Shown piece by piece: positions 30,009 to 53,997 of a stretch of DNA of 64,000 nt. The position numbers and the translations under genes were made by a program. Source of the stretch: Winogradskyella pelagia. Its GTDB lineage: Bacteria > Bacteroidota > Bacteroidia > Flavobacteriales > Flavobacteriaceae. How positions within the stretch are numbered: the stretch's first letter is position 1; each line of letters opens with the position of its first letter. Under the pieces are notes generated by a model. That model ran no database searches. It had not been told where the DNA came from and saw only the letters and a program-made list of their open reading frames with translations. Where the stretch lies: assembly GCF_017581965.1 (NCBI RefSeq), contig NZ_JAGEVF010000001.1, positions 124,001 to 188,000 on the forward strand. Direction: 5' to 3'.

Positions 30009-30024
30009 TGTTCCACGTGGAACG
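30009..30024. other. parS-like ParB-binding site, copy 1 (downstream of mnmG)
   Basis: TGTTCCACGTGGAACG contains the perfect 14-base palindrome GTTCCACGTGGAAC at 30010-30023. This is the core of the bacterial centromere site parS (consensus TGTTnCACGTGnAACA). It lies in the 68-base gap between the mnmG stop at 30034 and the methyltransferase start. Confidence 0.8.
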
Positions 30025-30033
30025 TAATACTAA

Positions 30034-31905
30034 TTATCGTCCTAAATAAACAAGTAAAACAGATATATCATTAGGTGATACGCCACTTATCCTTGATGCT
30101 TGCGAAATAGTTACAGGCTGTATTTCTGCTAATTTTTGCCTAGCCTCCATACTCATTGATTTGAGTTTTGAGTAATCAAAGTTCAAGGGTATTTTCACGT
30201 TCTCCAAACGATTTAATTTATCGGCATTATTCTTTTCTTTTTCAATATATCCCGCATATTTCACTTGAATTTCCGTCTGTTCTATAATCTCAGAATCTAA
30301 ATTGTTTTGGTCCATATAAGACGCAACAGACTTAATTTTTTTCATATCCCTAATGGTAATGTTTGGTCTAGCATAAAGCTTAAACATCTTATCCTGTTGC
30401 TTTACGGGTGCAGATTTTTTTGACTCTAAAATTGGATTTACTTCTTCCGGAGTAACGCTCGTGTCTTTAAAGAATTCTACAAAAGCACGTGCTCTCGATT
30501 CTTTCTCCTCCATGCGCCTTAGTCGTTCTTTTGAGGCTATGCCAAGTTCATATCCTTTTGGGGTTAGTCTAAAATCAGCATTATCTTGCCTTAATAAAGT
30601 CCTATATTCTGCCCTTGACGTAAACATCCTGTACGGCTCTTCTGTTCCCTTTGTAATTAAATCATCAATCAACACACCTATGTAGGCCTCGTCTCGTTTA
30701 AGCATAAACGGTTCTTTTTCTGCGATCTTAAGGCTCGCATTTATCCCAGCCATCAGCCCCTGGGATGCTGCCTCTTCATATCCAGTTGTGCCATTTATCT
30801 GACCTGCAAAATAAAGACCTTGTACTAGTTTTGTTTCAAGCGTATGTTTTAATTGAGTAGGAGGAAAATAGTCGTATTCTATAGCATAACCAGGTCTAAA
30901 GAACTTAACTTGTTCAAAACCTCTTACCGAACGAAGTGCTTTGTACTGGACATCCTCTGGAAGTGATGTGCTAAAACCATTTACATATACCTCAACGGTA
31001 TTCCAACCTTCTGGTTCAACAAATAACTGGTGCCTGTCTTTATCTGCAAAACGATTTATTTTATCCTCTATCGACGGGCAATACCGCGGACCTACGCTTT
31101 TTATCCTTCCGTTAAACATAGGTGAGCGATCAAAACCTTCTCGCAATAGCTCATGGACCTCTAGACTTGTATAGGTCATATGACAAGACCTTTGTTCCTC
31201 TAACGGTTTAGTTATATCTAGATATGAAAATTTTTCGGGCTGAGCGTCTCCAGGCTGTTCGATCATTTTTGAATAATCCAACGACCTACCGTCTACTCTA
31301 GGCGGCGTGCCTGTTTTCATTCTTCCAGCATCAAAGCCCAACTCAATAAGTTGCTCAGTAATACCAGTCGCGGCTCTTTCACCTGCTCTACCTCCTCCAA
31401 AATTCTTATCTCCAATATGAATGAGCCCATTTAGAAAAGTCCCATTGGTTAAAACAACCGACTTGGCTTTAACATCAATTCCCAAGGACGTCCTTACGCC
31501 AGCCACCTGATTTTTTTCAATCAAAAGACCTGAGACCATTTCTTGATAGAAATCAAGATTTTTAGTTTTCTCCAACATTAAGCGCCATTCCTCAGCAAAA
31601 CGCATACGATCACTTTGAACCCTTGGACTCCACATTGCCGGTCCTTTAGACTTATTTAGCATTTTAAATTGAATAGCAGAATTGTCAGACACAATTCCGC
31701 TATACCCTCCTAACGCATCAATCTCTCTAATTATCTGACCCTTTGCAATTCCACCCATCGCTGGGTTACACGACATTTGAGCAATGTTTTGTAAATTCAT
31801 AGTTATAAGCAGTGTCTTGCTACCCATATTCGCGGCAGCTGCGGCGGCTTCACTTCCGGCGTGGCCCCCTCCTACTACTATTACGTCATACACATCACTA
31901 AACAT
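30034..31905 (-). CDS. mnmG: tRNA uridine-5-carboxymethylaminomethyl modification enzyme MnmG (GidA)
   Basis: 623 residues, normal length. The FAD-binding VIVVGGGHAGSEAA is at 9-22. MSCNPAMGGIAKGQ with its essential Cys follows, and GTPPRVDGRSLDY and FFAGQINGTTGYEEA-like motifs are present (here YFAGQINGTTGYEEA). A C-terminal helical domain binds MnmE and tRNA. With MnmE it makes cmnm5U at the wobble position of several tRNAs. It follows ybeY and DUF4175 on the minus strand but has its own promoter and is bracketed by two parS-like palindromes. A position near the replication origin is common for mnmG in many bacteria. Confidence 0.97.
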   Translation of the reverse strand: MFSDVYDVIVVGGGHAGSEAAAAAANMGSKTLLITMNLQNIAQMSCNPAMGGIAKGQIIREIDALGGYSGIVSDNSAIQFKMLNKSKGPAMWSPRVQSDRMRFAEEWRLMLEKTKNLDFYQEMVSGLLIEKNQVAGVRTSLGIDVKAKSVVLTNGTFLNGLIHIGDKNFGGGRAGERAATGITEQLIELGFDAGRMKTGTPPRVDGRSLDYSKMIEQPGDAQPEKFSYLDITKPLEEQRSCHMTYTSLEVHELLREGFDRSPMFNGRIKSVGPRYCPSIEDKINRFADKDRHQLFVEPEGWNTVEVYVNGFSTSLPEDVQYKALRSVRGFEQVKFFRPGYAIEYDYFPPTQLKHTLETKLVQGLYFAGQINGTTGYEEAASQGLMAGINASLKIAEKEPFMLKRDEAYIGVLIDDLITKGTEEPYRMFTSRAEYRTLLRQDNADFRLTPKGYELGIASKERLRRMEEKESRARAFVEFFKDTSVTPEEVNPILESKKSAPVKQQDKMFKLYARPNITIRDMKKIKSVASYMDQNNLDSEIIEQTEIQVKYAGYIEKEKNNADKLNRLENVKIPLNFDYSKLKSMSMEARQKLAEIQPVTISQASRISGVSPNDISVLLVYLGR

Positions 31906-31919
31906 TATTATACCTTTTT

Positions 31920-31935
31920 TGTTCCACGTGGAACA
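31920..31935. other. parS-like ParB-binding site, copy 2 (upstream of mnmG)
   Basis: TGTTCCACGTGGAACA is a perfect 16-base palindrome identical to the parS variant known from pseudomonads. It lies 14 bases before the mnmG start, inside its predicted 5' leader, 1.9 kb from the other copy. The two copies share the same 14-base core, which cannot be chance at this spacing. Confidence 0.85.
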
Positions 31936-43884: not shown

Positions 43885-43955
43885 GGCGTCTTGGCCGAGT
43901 GGCTAGGCAAAGGTCTGCAAAACCTTGTACAGCGGTTCGAATCCGCTAGACGCCT
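43885..43955 (+). tRNA. tRNA-Cys (anticodon GCA)
   Basis: The acceptor stem GGCGTCT (43885-43891) pairs with AGACGCC (43948-43954). The anticodon stem AAGGT/ACCTT encloses the loop CTGCAAA with anticodon GCA at 43917-43919 or so. The T arm AGCGG/CCGCT encloses TTCGAAT. The 3' CCA is not encoded. The 71-base gene lies between folB and the LysE gene. Confidence 0.96.
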
Positions 43956-45384: not shown

Positions 45385-45437
45385 AACGTTTTGTTTTGTT
45401 AGAATGATGTCAATTTTTTTAAATTGTTACAGTTTGT

Positions 45438-45674
45438 CTACTTTACTCGGTACATTTTTTTACTAAATAACCACTTCAAATAAATTTCTTTCTCCGACTG
45501 TTTGACAATTATTGAACGCCTAGGAGACAAAACAACAGCAACAACAGCAGATATCGCTCCTAAAACACCAGAGCTTTCAATAGTTAAAAAACGGCCCACA
45601 ATTAACCTGCACGTGGCAAAAATTACAAAAAATATTAGAAACGATATTAGAATGGCTTTTGTGTTTGCTGACAT
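45438..45674 (-). CDS. Small membrane protein of unknown function
   Basis: 78 residues with two hydrophobic segments (about 7-26 and 35-50) and a basic C-terminus containing SPRRSIIVKQSEKEIYLKW. I do not recognise a family. It starts three bases after the stop of the YbjQ gene and follows it in an apparent three-gene operon, which supports it being real. Confidence 0.6.
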   Translation of the reverse strand: MSANTKAILISFLIFFVIFATCRLIVGRFLTIESSGVLGAISAVVAVVLSPRRSIIVKQSEKEIYLKWLFSKKMYRVK

Positions 45675-45677
45675 AAT

Positions 45678-45977
45678 TTAGAGTGCTACTTTTACTGCGG
45701 TACCAGTGACAGATACCATGGCATAATTACCTGTTGTTAGTTCAATTTCTACCTTAATTCCAACTACTGCGTTGGCATTAAGCTGTTTGGCATTTTCCCT
45801 AAGGCGTTGAAAAGCTTGTTCTTTGGTAGAATCTACACTATTTTGAATTCTTTTAATGTATTTAGACACGCTAAATCCCATAGCCATGACTTCATCATGT
45901 ACAGCTACACCAGTTACAATACCCAAATAATCAACGATATTGTAGCCCTCAATGGAATTTGTGGTTGTTAGTATCAT
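45678..45977 (-). CDS. YbjQ/UPF0145 family protein
   Basis: 99 residues, close to the family's usual 105. The start ILTTTNSIEGYNIVDYLGIVTG and later ANAVVGIKVE match the YbjQ (DUF74, sometimes called heavy-metal-binding) fold, which forms a pentameric ring. There is no clear metal-ligand set and its role is unknown. It overlaps the zinc-ribbon gene upstream by four bases (ATGA type) and is followed by a small membrane protein gene. Confidence 0.88.
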   Translation of the reverse strand: MILTTTNSIEGYNIVDYLGIVTGVAVHDEVMAMGFSVSKYIKRIQNSVDSTKEQAFQRLRENAKQLNANAVVGIKVEIELTTGNYAMVSVTGTAVKVAL

Positions 45978-46225
45978 AGTGATTTATGTTTTAAATAGGC
46001 TTCCCATAATTGATGTGGATTGTGTACAGATAATTCAATACTGCCGCAGGAACCACAGATATTTGCTTGGAGCTGCCCTTTTTCAAATTTATTAAAGAAA
46101 ATATTATCCGTTGTTTTTATATGAATGGATAAATCTCTCATTTGATTCATGTGCCCATAGTCTACAATTCTTACTTCTGGGATTATCTTATTTGAACCAC
46201 ATTTGTGGCAAGAATTAGTATCCAT
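45974..46225 (-). CDS. Small zinc-ribbon protein
   Basis: 83 residues. Two CxxC knuckles, C6-H-K-C9 and C57-G-S-C60, make a zinc ribbon. The middle is polar with no membrane segment. I do not recognise a named family. It begins the operon with the YbjQ gene and the small membrane protein gene, overlapping YbjQ by four bases. Confidence 0.72.
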   Translation of the reverse strand: MDTNSCHKCGSNKIIPEVRIVDYGHMNQMRDLSIHIKTTDNIFFNKFEKGQLQANICGSCGSIELSVHNPHQLWEAYLKHKSL

Positions 46226-46286
46226 AATTATTAACTTTTAAATGTTAGAAGCTCAGAACACAATTTTGTTACACCGTTATGTCCAT

Positions 46287-48524
46287 TTATGCTTCAGGCT
46301 TACCAACCATATAAAAATCAAGATGTTTTTTCACTAAATCTGTATTCTTAACCTTAACTATAACCTCATCGCCGAGCTGGTACATGGTCTTGGCCTTTCT
46401 GCCAATCATGGCGTAATGGTCTTGATCAAACTCGTAATGGTCGTCCTTCATATCTCTCACACTTACCATACCTTCACACTTATTGGCTACTATTTCTACG
46501 TAAATTCCCCAATCTGTAACACCAGAAATAACACCTAAAAAATCGTCATCTTGATGATCTTGCATAAAGCGAATCTGCATGTATTTAATAGAGTCGCGCT
46601 CAGCTTTTGTTGCTAGATATTCCATATTACTGGAATGCTTGCAGCGTTCCTCATAAAGCTCCTCATTTGCCGACTTACCACCATCGAGATAATGCTGTAA
46701 AAGACGATGTGCCATTACATCTGGATAACGCCGTATAGGAGAGGTAAAATGACTGTAATACTCAAAGGCCAAACCGTAATGTCCAATATTATGTGTGGTA
46801 TATTCTGCCTTAGACATGGTGCGTATAGTAAGGGTGTCTACTAAATTTTGTTCTTTTTTACCTACAACATCAGACAGCAATTTATTTAAAGAAGATGCCA
46901 CACTATTGCGATCTTTAAAATTTAATTTGTGTCCAAATCGACCTACCACCGTTTGCAACTGTGCTAATTTAGACTCGTCTGGCTCATCGTGTACACGATA
47001 CACGAAGGTTTTTTTTGGTTTTTGTTTCCCAATAAACTCTGACACCTTTCTATTAGCCAATAACATAAACTCTTCAATAAGTTTGTTGGCATCCTTGCTG
47101 GTTTTAAAGAAAACACCTACTGGATTGGCGTCGCTGTCTAAATCGAATTTAACCTCTACCTTATCAAATGAAATAGCACCTTCTCGCATGCGTTTGGAGC
47201 GCATTTTTTTTGCCAATCGATCCAATATCACAACAGCTTCTGCTATTTCTGGTTTGGTATTGTATTGTTTCTCTGTTAGGGAAACTTCTTTTGGTATAGA
47301 GGTGTTTAATTGAGAAGCTTGCACTGCACCTAGTGTTGCTTTAGGATTATTTTCTATGATGGCCTGGGCCTCTTCATAGGCGAAGCGCGCATCCGAGTAA
47401 GTTACCGTTCTACCGAACCATTCGTTTTTAATCTCACATTTATCGTTCATTTGAAACACCGCAGAAAAGGTATACTTTTCTTCACGTGGTCGTAAGGAAC
47501 AAGCACCGTTAGAAAGTCGCTCTGGTAACATAGGCACCACACGATCCACTAAATAAATAGAAGTAGCCCGCTCATAGGCTTCCTCATCTAAAACTGTGTC
47601 TGGTTTTACGTAATGAGATACGTCTGCGATATGTATACCTATTTCGTAAATCCCATTTCTTAAAACGGTAAACGATAAGGCGTCATCAAAATCCTTAGCA
47701 TCCTTAGGGTCTATGGTAAAGGTTAAATCCTTACGCATATCTCGACGTTTAGCAATTTCTTCTGGTTTTATTGAAATATCTATGTTATTAGCATAAGTTT
47801 CTACCTCTTGAGGAAACTCCAATGGTAAGCCATATTCAGCCATAATAGAGTTAATCTCAGTCCCATGTTCTCCTGGTTTACCAAGTACTTTAATAACTTT
47901 TCCGTTTGGTGAATCTGACTTTTCTGGCCAATCTTCCAATGATACTAATACTTTGTCACCATCCTCTGCTTTATTAGTTTTGTTCATAGGTACAAAAATA
48001 TCGGTGTACATTTTGGTATTATCGGCTACGACAAAGGCAAAATTCTTTTTTGAGTGAATCTGTATGGTCCCAACATACTCGGATTTGGCGCGTTTAATAA
48101 CCCTAGTGATTTCACCTTCTTGTTTACCACGATGCTTTCTGCGGTATGCATAAAACTCTACTTCGTCTCCGTCTAAAGCTTTGTTAATGTTATTAGAGGC
48201 AACAAAGATATCGTCTTCAAAATCGTCAGAAATGATATAGCCGTTACCCCTGGCACTCATATCTAATATACCAGTAAAATATTCTGTGTTTACAACAGCT
48301 TTAAATTTACCACGCTCTACCTCCTCAATGTCGCCCTTTGCCTTTAATTGGTGGAGTTTTTTAATTATTTGATTGCGACTACTAGCATCGTCAAATCCAA
48401 GCTTAGAGGCAATTTGTTTATAGTTAAAGGCTTTATTTCGTTCTTTTTTTAGAATACCAAGTATAGTATTGGTAAGGTTGGAAATCTTATTTTTTCTAGA
48501 CTTCCTTTTTTTCTTTCTTGTCAT
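46287..48524 (-). CDS. rnr: Ribonuclease R
   Basis: 745 residues. A basic N-terminus (MTRKKKRKSRKNK) and a winged-helix segment (about 13-75) precede cold-shock domains (about 80-215). The RNB catalytic domain has TIDPKDAKDFDDAL (270-283; D272, D278, D280, D281 bind Mg). A C-terminal S1 domain follows, about 655-740. It is a 3'-5' exoribonuclease that digests structured RNA and helps in rRNA and tmRNA-related decay. It starts beside the candidate origin and is read away from it. Confidence 0.96.
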   Translation of the reverse strand: MTRKKKRKSRKNKISNLTNTILGILKKERNKAFNYKQIASKLGFDDASSRNQIIKKLHQLKAKGDIEEVERGKFKAVVNTEYFTGILDMSARGNGYIISDDFEDDIFVASNNINKALDGDEVEFYAYRRKHRGKQEGEITRVIKRAKSEYVGTIQIHSKKNFAFVVADNTKMYTDIFVPMNKTNKAEDGDKVLVSLEDWPEKSDSPNGKVIKVLGKPGEHGTEINSIMAEYGLPLEFPQEVETYANNIDISIKPEEIAKRRDMRKDLTFTIDPKDAKDFDDALSFTVLRNGIYEIGIHIADVSHYVKPDTVLDEEAYERATSIYLVDRVVPMLPERLSNGACSLRPREEKYTFSAVFQMNDKCEIKNEWFGRTVTYSDARFAYEEAQAIIENNPKATLGAVQASQLNTSIPKEVSLTEKQYNTKPEIAEAVVILDRLAKKMRSKRMREGAISFDKVEVKFDLDSDANPVGVFFKTSKDANKLIEEFMLLANRKVSEFIGKQKPKKTFVYRVHDEPDESKLAQLQTVVGRFGHKLNFKDRNSVASSLNKLLSDVVGKKEQNLVDTLTIRTMSKAEYTTHNIGHYGLAFEYYSHFTSPIRRYPDVMAHRLLQHYLDGGKSANEELYEERCKHSSNMEYLATKAERDSIKYMQIRFMQDHQDDDFLGVISGVTDWGIYVEIVANKCEGMVSVRDMKDDHYEFDQDHYAMIGRKAKTMYQLGDEVIVKVKNTDLVKKHLDFYMVGKPEA

Positions 48525-48682
48525 TTAATTTGTAATCATATTCACTTCCCAAAGGTGTTAGGAATTCTTCTTTTAAAACTTAATACAAATAGTGAAGTGC
48601 ATATTAAGTTATTACAAAGCTAAGGTATTAATATTTAATTAAGTTGAGTGAAGGTCAAATAAACAGAAAGCCAATTTTGAAC

Positions 48683-48691
48683 TTATCAACA
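48683..48691 (+). other. DnaA box-like 9-mer 1
   Basis: TTATCAACA, one base from the E. coli-type TTATCCACA and a common DnaA-box variant. Candidate initiator binding site in the AT-rich gap. Confidence 0.45.
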
Positions 48692-48887
48692 CATATATAC
48701 ATATTATCATTTTTCTTTTAAAATATTAAAAAATAAATAATTATGATTATAGGGTGTTAATAGGTAGTATAACTTTATGCAGTTTTATTTTGGAATTTTG
48801 TAGTTGACATTTTGTTATTAACTAATGAACATAAAAAGTATAGTCAACTTATTTAAAATGAGAATAGTCTTAATTATTATAAACAAC

Positions 48888-48896
48888 TGTTGATAA
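48888..48896 (-). other. DnaA box-like 9-mer 2, opposite orientation
   Basis: TGTTGATAA on the plus strand is the reverse complement of TTATCAACA. It sits in a short inverted repeat (CTGTT-GAT-AACAG, 48887-48899), about 200 bases from the first box. Confidence 0.45.
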
Positions 48897-49120
48897 CAGT
48901 AAAACACATAATTTATGAATATAATTTTAACTTTTAATGGTTAATTACTCAACTTTTAGGTTTAATAAGTTACTAGAAATTATAGCTTAAATTATTTGGT
49001 CAGTCTATTACAATACTGCTTTGTAAATTTTATTCAATTATCAAATATTTTTTTGTGATTACTTGTAAACAGTTATGAACATGTAATACCTAATATTATT
49101 AACCACGATGTATTAATTTG

Positions 49121-49128
49121 TAACTTTG
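49121..49128 (+). promoter_or_regulatory. -7 promoter box of rpiB
   Basis: TAACTTTG is an exact TAnnTTTG match, 24 bases before the rpiB ATG at 49153. The in-frame TTG at 49126 lies inside this box and is therefore not the start. Confidence 0.5.
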
Positions 49129-49152
49129 TCTTTTAAACTATTAAAATGCATT

Positions 49153-49587
49153 ATGACTATATCAATTGGTAACGACCATGCAGGTCCAGATTATAAAAAA
49201 GCAATTGTTGAACACCTTGAATCTAAAGGGATAACAGTGCAAAACTACGGTACAGATTCTCTTGACAGCGTAGATTATCCAGATTTTGTACATCCTGTAG
49301 CTAAAGATGTTAACGATGCTAAAGTAGATTTCGGAATTTTAATCTGTGGAAGTGCCAACGGTGTTGCCATGACGGCTAATAAATACCAAAATGTAAGAGC
49401 TGGTGTATGTTGGATGAATGAGATTACAGAATTAACACGTCAGCACAACAACGCAAATATTATTTGCATACCTGCGCGCTACACCTCGCTACCTCAAGCT
49501 ATCAAAATGGTAGACACATTTTTAAACACAGCTTTTGAAGGTGGACGTCATCAAAACCGCGTTAATAAAATACCAATGTCTTGCTAA
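49153..49587 (+). CDS. rpiB: Ribose-5-phosphate isomerase B
   Basis: 144 residues from the ATG at 49153 (MTISIGNDHAG). The active-site region is ICGSANGVAMTANK, with the Cys that acts as base and the ANK end typical of RpiB. GNDHAGPDYK is the phosphate-binding start. The enzyme interconverts ribose-5-phosphate and ribulose-5-phosphate in the pentose phosphate pathway. It is followed after 12 bases by a CDF gene and is the first gene to the right of the candidate origin. Confidence 0.95.
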   Translation: MTISIGNDHAGPDYKKAIVEHLESKGITVQNYGTDSLDSVDYPDFVHPVAKDVNDAKVDFGILICGSANGVAMTANKYQNVRAGVCWMNEITELTRQHNNANIICIPARYTSLPQAIKMVDTFLNTAFEGGRHQNRVNKIPMSC

Positions 49588-51848: not shown

Positions 51849-53483
51849 TTATCTCAAAATACTAGCGTATTGTGTAGGATTATTCAGCACACTTAAAGCT
51901 TTAATAATATCTGGATTTTTAATGGTGTAATATTTATATAGTCCCTCACTGTAGAAGTAGCGTTTTATAATTTCATCAGTGAGCAAAGACTCCAATTGCG
52001 ATTTGTTTTCGTCGATAGCATTTGATTTATAAGACTGAATTGCAGCTGTTAAGTTATGGTAATCAGAGTTAATCACATTATCCAGTTCTTCTTCTTCGGC
52101 AACAGCCATGGCATTATTTAATGCTTTTTCGGTTTTAGTCTCAAAATTAAAACCAGAGGATTTTAAGAAGGTTTTAAACGATTTGTAATCTTTGTCGGAA
52201 AATTCAAAATTTTCAAATTCAGTTACCATATTTTTATAATAATACTCTGTAGCAAAGTTAAAAATTAGATTCTCGCCGACAATCGCTTTGCTAATGGTTG
52301 TTAGCTTTGAGTTTTCAATTTCAATATCTGGTTCAACACCGCCTCCATCAAACACCTCACGGCCATTTTTGGTTTTAAAGACGTTATAATTTTCTTTTTT
52401 TACGCGAGTTGCTTTTCCATTTTCATCCCTATTCCAATAATCTAGTGCTTGTATACAGCGTCCAGACGGTGTATAATACCTAGAAATTGTAATCTTCATC
52501 TGTGTGCCGTAGGTGAGTGGTTTAGGACGTTGAACTAATCCTTTACCAAAACTTCTAGACCCTACGATTACGGCTCTGTCCATATCTTGTAGTGCACCGG
52601 AAACGATTTCACTAGCTGAAGCACTTCTTCCGTCAATAAGTACCACTAAGGGAATCTCAGTATCAACGGGTTCTTTTCTGGTGTAATATGTTTTATTGTA
52701 TTTTTTAACTTTAGATTTTGTTGTTACCACCAATTCATTTTTAGGGACAAAGATGTTGGTAACATTAACGGCCTCTGAAAGTAAGCCTCCAGGATTACCC
52801 CGTAAATCCAATATCATCTGCGTAGCGCCCTGGTTTTTTAAAGCTCTCATTGCTCTAATAGTCTCGGAGGATGCTTTTGCATTAAATTTTCTCAGAACTA
52901 CATAACCCGTTTTATCATCAATCATAGAATAGTGTGGTACGGCTTTAATATCTAAGGATTCTCTAATAATATTTACTGTCTTAACCTCTCCTTGTCGTTT
53001 ATAGGTTACACTTACCTCTGTCCCGGCTGCACCCTGTAATAGGTTTGCCGCATCATCTTTAAAATCAGCCACAGTGACATTGCCCACTTTAATAATTTCA
53101 TCGCCGGCTTTTAAACCCGCCTTGTCAGCAGCGTAATCCTTATAGGGTTCAACAATTACAAGTCTATCTTTTAAAGTAAGTACTCTTGCTCCAATACCTG
53201 TATAGTCGCCAGCATTGTTAATTCGAGAAGCTTCAACATCCTGTTCGTTGTAAAATTGCGTATATGGATCTAAATCAGACAGCATACTTTTAATTGCTGT
53301 ATCCATTAAATCTCCAGGATTGGTATCGTCAACATAATTCATGTTGAGCTCTTTGAACATGGTAGTGAAAATTTCAATCTGCTTGGCAATTTCAAAGAAG
53401 TCGTTTTTAAATGCCGTTGTGCTATAAAAGATGACTAGCGCAACAACGGGAATGACTAGTTTTTTATGGGGTTTTAGTTTCAT
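51849..53483 (-). CDS. S41 family C-terminal processing peptidase
   Basis: 544 residues from the ATG at 53483. An in-frame ATG at 53513 would add ten residues inside rnpA. One N-terminal hydrophobic segment (about 8-24) probably acts as signal or anchor. A PDZ domain is at about 75-165 (RLVIVEPYKDYAADKAGL, GDEIIKV). The S41 catalytic Ser is in SASEIVSGAL and the Lys in SFGKGLVQ. The C-terminal 180 residues are helical. The enzyme cleaves periplasmic proteins near their C-termini. Its start overlaps the 3' end of rnpA by 20 bases, so the two are translated together. Confidence 0.92.
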   Translation of the reverse strand: MKLKPHKKLVIPVVALVIFYSTTAFKNDFFEIAKQIEIFTTMFKELNMNYVDDTNPGDLMDTAIKSMLSDLDPYTQFYNEQDVEASRINNAGDYTGIGARVLTLKDRLVIVEPYKDYAADKAGLKAGDEIIKVGNVTVADFKDDAANLLQGAAGTEVSVTYKRQGEVKTVNIIRESLDIKAVPHYSMIDDKTGYVVLRKFNAKASSETIRAMRALKNQGATQMILDLRGNPGGLLSEAVNVTNIFVPKNELVVTTKSKVKKYNKTYYTRKEPVDTEIPLVVLIDGRSASASEIVSGALQDMDRAVIVGSRSFGKGLVQRPKPLTYGTQMKITISRYYTPSGRCIQALDYWNRDENGKATRVKKENYNVFKTKNGREVFDGGGVEPDIEIENSKLTTISKAIVGENLIFNFATEYYYKNMVTEFENFEFSDKDYKSFKTFLKSSGFNFETKTEKALNNAMAVAEEEELDNVINSDYHNLTAAIQSYKSNAIDENKSQLESLLTDEIIKRYFYSEGLYKYYTIKNPDIIKALSVLNNPTQYASILR

Positions 53484-53850
53484 TTTGAGCTGTTTTTTTT
53501 GCAAATTTTTCAAGAAGTACCGTCATAGCATTATGTAATGCTTCAAAAGTTGTGCCTTCTTTGCTAATGTATAAAATCATAAACGCATAAGATGTTGAAC
53601 TATTGTTAAAGTATATCGGCTTACTAAGTCTAAAGGCTTCTCGCGTCAAACGTTTTATACGGTTCCTAGCTACAGCGGTTTTGTGTAGGCGCTTACTCAC
53701 TGAAAAACCTACTTTAATCCTAGCATCATCATCATTTTTTAAATACACTAGGCGTAATGGAAAAGCTGTAACAGATTTACCCTCATTAAACAACCTATCG
53801 ATAGTAGTTTTACTTTTTAGTTTGTTTGATTTGCCTAGTTTATATCTCAT
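53464..53850 (-). CDS. rnpA: Ribonuclease P protein component
   Basis: 128 residues from the ATG at 53850 (MRYKLGKSNKLKSK). A longer frame to 53895 adds 15 residues of a different type. VGFSVSKRLHKTAVARNRIKRLTREAFR (here in short blocks: VGFSVSKRLHKTA and RNRIKRLTREAFR) is the family signature. It binds the RNase P RNA and helps it cut the 5' leader of pre-tRNA. The usual neighbours rpmH and yidC are absent. It is followed by an S41 protease gene that overlaps it by 20 bases. Confidence 0.95.
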   Translation of the reverse strand: MRYKLGKSNKLKSKTTIDRLFNEGKSVTAFPLRLVYLKNDDDARIKVGFSVSKRLHKTAVARNRIKRLTREAFRLSKPIYFNNSSTSYAFMILYISKEGTTFEALHNAMTVLLEKFAKKTAQNETKTP

Positions 53851-53997
53851 ACACTGCGCGAGTAAGAACGGTAAATGTAATACATATCGCAGCAATTCAA
53901 AGCAGGGTTGTAATAACGGCCATGATAAAAATCATATTTTTAAGCTCTTTATTAAAGTAACTTACCAAGAATTTTCTATTAAAAACACACAGTAAAT

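Follow-up and report, generated by a model that had tools for sequence, protein, structure and literature searches.

The AT-rich gap between rnr and rpiB in Winogradskyella pelagia is very probably the chromosomal origin of replication (oriC), of the DnaA-dependent type, and the family Flavobacteriaceae as a whole seems to use this place as its origin. The gap spans positions 48525..49152 (no strand assigned) of the window, by which we mean the whole stretch of 64,000 nucleotides analysed here (C11:124001-188000); contig C11 belongs to a 3.36 Mb draft genome in 58 contigs. Our computations place the gap at or near the axis of two replication-linked asymmetries, 16S gene orientation and GC skew. 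Thus the original prediction of a candidate origin between rnr and rpiB is supported by the skew breakpoint of the contig, by the 16S genes of two sets of relatives and by the sign of the skew in two complete relatives.

Composition and DnaA boxes of the gap

The gap is 628 bp long, has a GC content of 21.3% and separates rnr (ribonuclease R, 46287..48524, minus strand, TIGR02063) at its left from rpiB (ribose-5-phosphate isomerase B, 49153..49587, plus strand, NF004051) at its right. The closest rpiB loci that carry a name come from Winogradskyella. In C11 1-540000, which is nearly the whole contig, the gap is the lowest-GC stretch at both the 600-bp and the 300-bp scale; judged by its composition, it offers a candidate for the AT-rich unwinding element of a DnaA-dependent oriC. 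These data agree with the original prediction, in which the gap was extremely AT-rich and its flanking genes pointed away from it. Its description as the only long gene-free gap was roughly right, since positions 45385-46286 of the window also lack an ORF of more than 100 aa but contain three small ORFs of 78-99 aa. One of these (45974-46225), located between a 223-aa ORF and rnr, encodes two CxxC pairs.

Two exact DnaA boxes in opposite orientation together with near matches had also been announced, and sites of both kinds were recovered. The two exact matches to TTATCAACA are putative box 1 (48683..48691, plus strand) and a putative inverted box (48888..48896, minus strand). The near matches are TTATAAACA (48877..48885, plus strand), which stands head-to-head with the 48888 box at a distance of 2 bp, and TTATGAACA (49073..49081, plus strand), whose place in the alignment reads TTATTAACA in many relatives. 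In addition, the alignment and the gap counts pointed to an inverted DnaA-box-like site, CTATTAACA, at 48755..48763 on the minus strand (TGTTAATAG on the plus strand), the TGTTAAT part of which shows little or no variation across 20 aligned sequences (the window and the loci of 19 relatives chosen for their short gaps). The stretch between box 1 and this inverted site (48692..48754, no strand), in which 8 of 63 bases counted by eye are G or C, is the proposed DNA unwinding element.

The gap holds a cluster of boxes above chance, as a DnaA-dependent oriC does. None of 5000 dinucleotide shuffles of the gap reached two exact TTATCAACA boxes (shuffle mean 0.023), and its four TTATN[AC]ACA sites were equalled in a fraction of 0.0002 of 5000 such shuffles. 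When C11 1-540000 was read in 700-bp windows, the gap was the densest cluster of this motif, with 4 sites against a mean of 0.087 and a next best of 2. Sites with one mismatch to the box showed a mild excess only over the whole window (51 vs 34.3). The looser motif TTWTNCACA was discarded as uninformative, since genome-wide the reversed control had more sites (430) than the motif itself (332). A scan of the gap for a DnaA-trio found no clear one; all it yielded were three short A-rich stretches, each made up of three [TA]A[GA] triplets. According to the available part of a published study, the module of box and DnaA-trio was not identified in 15% of the genomes interrogated (PMC8287927).

From this layout, DnaA made from its distant gene would bind box 1 (48683), the 48755 site, the 48877/48888 pair and the 49073 site, and the bound protein would oligomerise and melt the AT-rich 48692-48754 stretch. 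The helicase would then be loaded and two forks would depart, the left one towards mnmG and the parS sites and the right one towards rnpA, while the ends of the gap may double as the rnr and rpiB promoters.

It might also be proposed that the gap is merely a long divergent promoter or regulatory region, or an unannotated RNA, whose DnaA boxes regulate genes. Promoter-like elements indeed stand near both ends: candidate -7 elements were found for rnr (TAGCTTTG, 48615..48622, minus strand) and for rpiB (TAACTTTG, 49121..49128, plus strand). Both follow TAnnTTTG, which we take to be the Bacteroidota -7 promoter motif and which recurs in the rnr-proximal 190 bp in 18 of the 20 aligned sequences and in the final 140 bp in 11 of them. 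DnaA can act as a transcription regulator, and the rnr end of the gap (0.78-0.81 in the 20 sequences) is nearly as conserved as the core, probably reflecting the rnr promoter. However, the best-conserved 50 bp (48725-48774, 0.84-0.88) are internal to the gap, and a promoter would leave the replication-axis data unexplained. A known RNA in the gap was rejected because Rfam gave no match there at gathering score, the sole match in the window being a tRNA at 43885-43955. We thus regard a purely regulatory or RNA role as very unlikely.

16S orientation and GC skew around the gap

When the gap was taken as origin, all 60 16S genes of 27 genomes were on the leading strand, while random origins gave a mean of 30 and a maximum of 50 in 10,000 draws. 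The held-back set of 14 single-contig genomes gave the same picture (32 of 32 genes; random mean 16, maximum 30), and the two sets together give 92 of 92 16S genes, from 41 genomes, transcribed in the direction of replication. This is a coarse test, as an origin shifted by 10% of the chromosome still leaves 57-59 of the 60 genes leading. The first count used 60 of 71 rows, 11 short fragments of already counted genes being dropped, with at most 8 candidates scored per genome and 4 of the 31 genomes having no 16S row; the second used 32 of 37 rows after 5 fragments were dropped. Many chromosome lengths were rounded to 0.1 Mb, those of G019 and G077 were guessed just beyond the last match, and in G017 the rpiB side was taken as origin. 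An origin at dnaA, as in most textbook bacteria, would fit the many family records that start at this gene. Its probability is nevertheless close to nil: merely 9 of the 60 16S genes are then co-oriented, for which reason dnaA was rejected, and in G123 and G201 the sampled skew has its origin-type flip at a great distance from this gene.

The best single GC-skew breakpoint of C11 1-540000 is at 172,500, the left edge of the gap (C11:172,525-173,152), with 95% ranges in three bootstraps of about -43 to +41, -37 to +34 and -31 to +33 kb. The cumulative skew of C11 reaches its minimum 12.5 kb to the right of the gap. Within the limits of a draft genome, an origin at the gap withstood the skew check that had been suggested with the original prediction. 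In two complete relatives, sampled as twenty 20-kb stretches per genome, the skew had the expected sign in 19 of 20 (G201) and 18 of 20 stretches (G123), and a second flip was found about opposite the gap. Finer skew was obtained from dense 400-kb stretches of three relatives. In G047 the raw breakpoint fell 486 bp to the left of the centre of the gap (95% range -10.5 to +8.0 kb). In G055 it fell at -0.5 kb, with an uninformative interval, and in G100 it fell 37 kb to the right, the gap being outside the interval of 23-52 kb.

The change of strand between rnr and rpiB itself contributes to the raw breakpoint. With third-codon-position skew corrected for gene strand, the breakpoint was 4.5-6.8 kb left of the gap in C11 and 8-10 kb left in G100, both with intervals that include the gap, 24-27 kb left in G055 (uninformative), and 15-16 kb left in G047, with an interval (-17.9 to -11.4 kb) that excludes it. 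The strand asymmetry expected of a DnaA-dependent oriC thus switches at the gap at a resolution of ~10-40 kb or coarser, some breakpoints missing it by 5-37 kb. Since the skew breakpoints do not single out the gap, the narrowing to it rests on composition, boxes and conservation.

The strand-corrected breakpoints, which are left of the gap in all four genomes, might suggest that the origin is some other spot within ~10-30 kb of the gap, for example between mnmG and rnr. We consider this unlikely, because the other listed 700-bp windows of C11 1-540000 have at most 2 TTATN[AC]ACA sites, because the gap clearly exceeds the rest of this stretch in AT content, and because local inversions would be expected to shift such breakpoints.

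Conservation of the gap and the mnmG neighbourhood

Among 249 genomes searched, 45 were single-contig; the first 31 of these were closer relatives for which the place of rpiB was listed, and the other 14 were searched last. Divergent rnr and rpiB are neighbours in 43 of the 45 family genomes, that is in 30 of the first 31 (gap of 544-5452 bp, median 854) and in 13 of the second 14; in G017 they are 37 kb apart. In six of the 30 (G123, G124, G097, G045, G130 and G237) the gap measures 2.2-5.5 kb, which suggests genes inserted beside the origin. The record G019:C1 starts inside the gap (rnr at 549 on the plus strand, rpiB at the other end on the minus strand), as if its depositors had placed the origin there. 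In G196, rnr has moved to a distance of 44 kb; DNA that is rich in AT (17% GC) and contains boxes still adjoins rpiB, and the DNA preceding rnr, at 23% GC, contains one TTATCAACA.

To place the pair outside the family, we tabulated the 34 same-class genomes with both genes listed from a draw of 138 Bacteroidota. The divergent pair was present in 14 of 14 family members, while in the 20 same-class genomes outside the family the two genes were in tandem in 2, far apart on one contig in 5 and on different contigs in 13. Both tandem cases belong to a sister family, with rpiB and rnr 359-404 bp apart (G260:C2:583085-586002 and G338:C1:2768848-2771810). The rnr/rpiB address looks specific to the Flavobacteriaceae.

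The boxes recur in the gaps of relatives, whose counts are not independent since these genomes share ancestry. Of 80 loci, 67 gave a gap and 13 had no rnr match in the DNA examined; 56 of the 67 gaps, those below 1600 bp, were combined with that of the window. In these 57 gaps, TTATC[AC]ACA was present in 37 (2.5 in shuffles) and its exact form missing from 20, GTTATTAACA was present anywhere in the gap in 36 (0.8 expected) and CTATTAACA likewise in 36 (1.7 expected). The degenerate TTATN[AC]ACA gave 85 sites, against 12.5 in shuffles, in 26 gaps, namely that of the window and 25 of the 30 relatives' gaps, some of them with inserted genes. The densest cluster is not always in the gap: in G047 it is found 3.3 kb to the right of where the gap begins (4 sites vs 3), and in G100 a cluster 34 kb to the right ties with the gap (3 and 3). 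Stretches of lower GC exist outside the gap in G055 and G100.

The wider neighbourhood of the gap resembles that of oriC of the Escherichia coli and Bacillus subtilis type, with parS, mnmG and rnpA. In the window, mnmG (gidA; 30034..31905, minus strand, PF01134) is 17.8 kb left of the gap, between two parS sites at 16.6-18.5 kb. One of these is exact (31920..31935, plus strand) and the other has one mismatch (30009..30024, plus strand) to TGTTCCACGTGGAACA, which we take to be the parS consensus; none of 100 shuffles had two sites at <=3 mismatches. On the other side, rnpA (53464..53895, minus strand, PF00825) is 4.3 kb from the gap. The original prediction, which had put mnmG with parS 17-19 kb to the left, rnpA about 5 kb to the right and mostly minus-strand genes on the left, was confirmed; in the 72 kb to the left, 47 of 55 ORFs of at least 150 aa are on the minus strand. 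A plus-strand bias is absent on the right (31 of 57 ORFs plus within 77 kb). The same asymmetry, strong on the left and absent on the right, was observed within 100 kb in C11 (65/78 leading-strand genes on the left, 38/73 on the right), G047 (60/68 and 30/72) and G055 (59/64 and 24/65). Gene strand is a poor locator, with its cumulative minimum in C11 at 472-475 kb, and was rejected for this use.

In the available parts of two papers on Flavobacteriaceae, Ori-Finder places oriC at or beside mnmG, in Mariniflexile litorale (PMC11278836) and in Algorimicrobium/Bizionia (PMC12843772). In the first of these, the figure legend swaps labels, mnmG being given as ter, and dnaA did not fit the skew plot. 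An origin at mnmG, to which the gap would be a mere neighbour, could call on these reports, on the parS sites flanking the gene and on its place in C11, inside both the raw skew interval and that of the strand-corrected 372-kb fit. Nevertheless, the strand-corrected 540-kb fit of C11 excludes mnmG, and so do both the raw and the strand-corrected intervals in G047 and G100 (mnmG being 56 and 52 kb away there). Just 17 and 84 bp of non-coding DNA lie beside mnmG in the window, which is little room for an oriC, and no exact TTATCAACA was found near it there. Moreover, in relatives it stands 7-57 kb from the gap and not always on the same side (left in 27 of 29 genomes, right, on the rpiB side, in 2), being on the leading strand in 26 of the 29. 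Given this lack of room, the variable distance and side and the skew intervals, mnmG was rejected, and we hold it to be distinctly unlikely as the origin. Judging from our own window and not from those strains, we read the published calls as the right neighbourhood and the wrong gene: as far as the available text goes, they deal with members of this family and probably point to the same part of the chromosome, whereas our site is the rnr/rpiB gap, ~17-18 kb from mnmG here. We did not find rnr/rpiB named as oriC in the literature searched, although an earlier listing, for example in DoriC, is possible; nor was it named in the available parts of PMC10225481, PMC9584773, PMC5109545, PMC4759079 and PMC13342612.

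A probable DnaA-type origin far from dnaA

The rnr/rpiB gap as oriC would be of a known kind, DnaA-dependent as in E. coli and B. subtilis, at an address unlike the two published mnmG-based calls. As in these model bacteria, it lies between genes, is rich in AT and carries a cluster of DnaA boxes where the GC skew switches; unlike theirs, it has no clear DnaA-trio, is flanked by rnr and rpiB and is not beside dnaA, adjacency to dnaA/dnaN being common but not defining for this type. The original prediction was correct that dnaA is outside the window, the gene being on another contig (C58:17780-18265). In 30 single-contig relatives, dnaA is 0.23-0.47 of the chromosome away from the gap (median 0.34) and, if replication starts in the gap, is oriented head-on to the fork in 29. 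Such a head-on placement was not found in the literature searched for it. Distance between the two is already in print: according to the available part of one paper, a large distance between oriC and dnaA is common in Bacteroidetes, and the predicted oriC of Prevotella intermedia chromosome 1, which is from another family, likewise has multiple DnaA boxes at a skew transition with dnaA distant (PMC4755523). Blattabacterium is described, in the part available, as having no dnaA and an origin set by skew (PMC2768785).

The boxes of the gap follow TTATNAACA, whereas those of E. coli follow TTATCCACA. The DnaA of W. pelagia is an intact 475-aa frame whose recognition region reads QRDHATVLHACK, where the E. 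coli protein has RDHTTVLHA. It is our guess that the A at box position 6 is linked to RDHATV in this DnaA, against RDHTTV in E. coli. More broadly, and only tentatively, the Flavobacteriaceae might have a split layout in which the rnr/rpiB gap is the fixed site of oriC, with boxes of this type, and dnaA is kept head-on in the outer part of a replichore, towards the terminus, so that faster growth would lower the dosage of the initiator gene relative to that of the origin; the change from C to A at position 6 may go with RDHATV.

If an origin in the gap is confirmed, the rnr/rpiB pair would give a large environmental family an origin address at gene level, different from published mnmG- or dnaA-based calls. 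It would be useful for rotating genomes, for estimating growth rates from metagenomic coverage and for building replicating plasmids. The conserved separation and head-on orientation of dnaA would thereby be exposed and could be tested.
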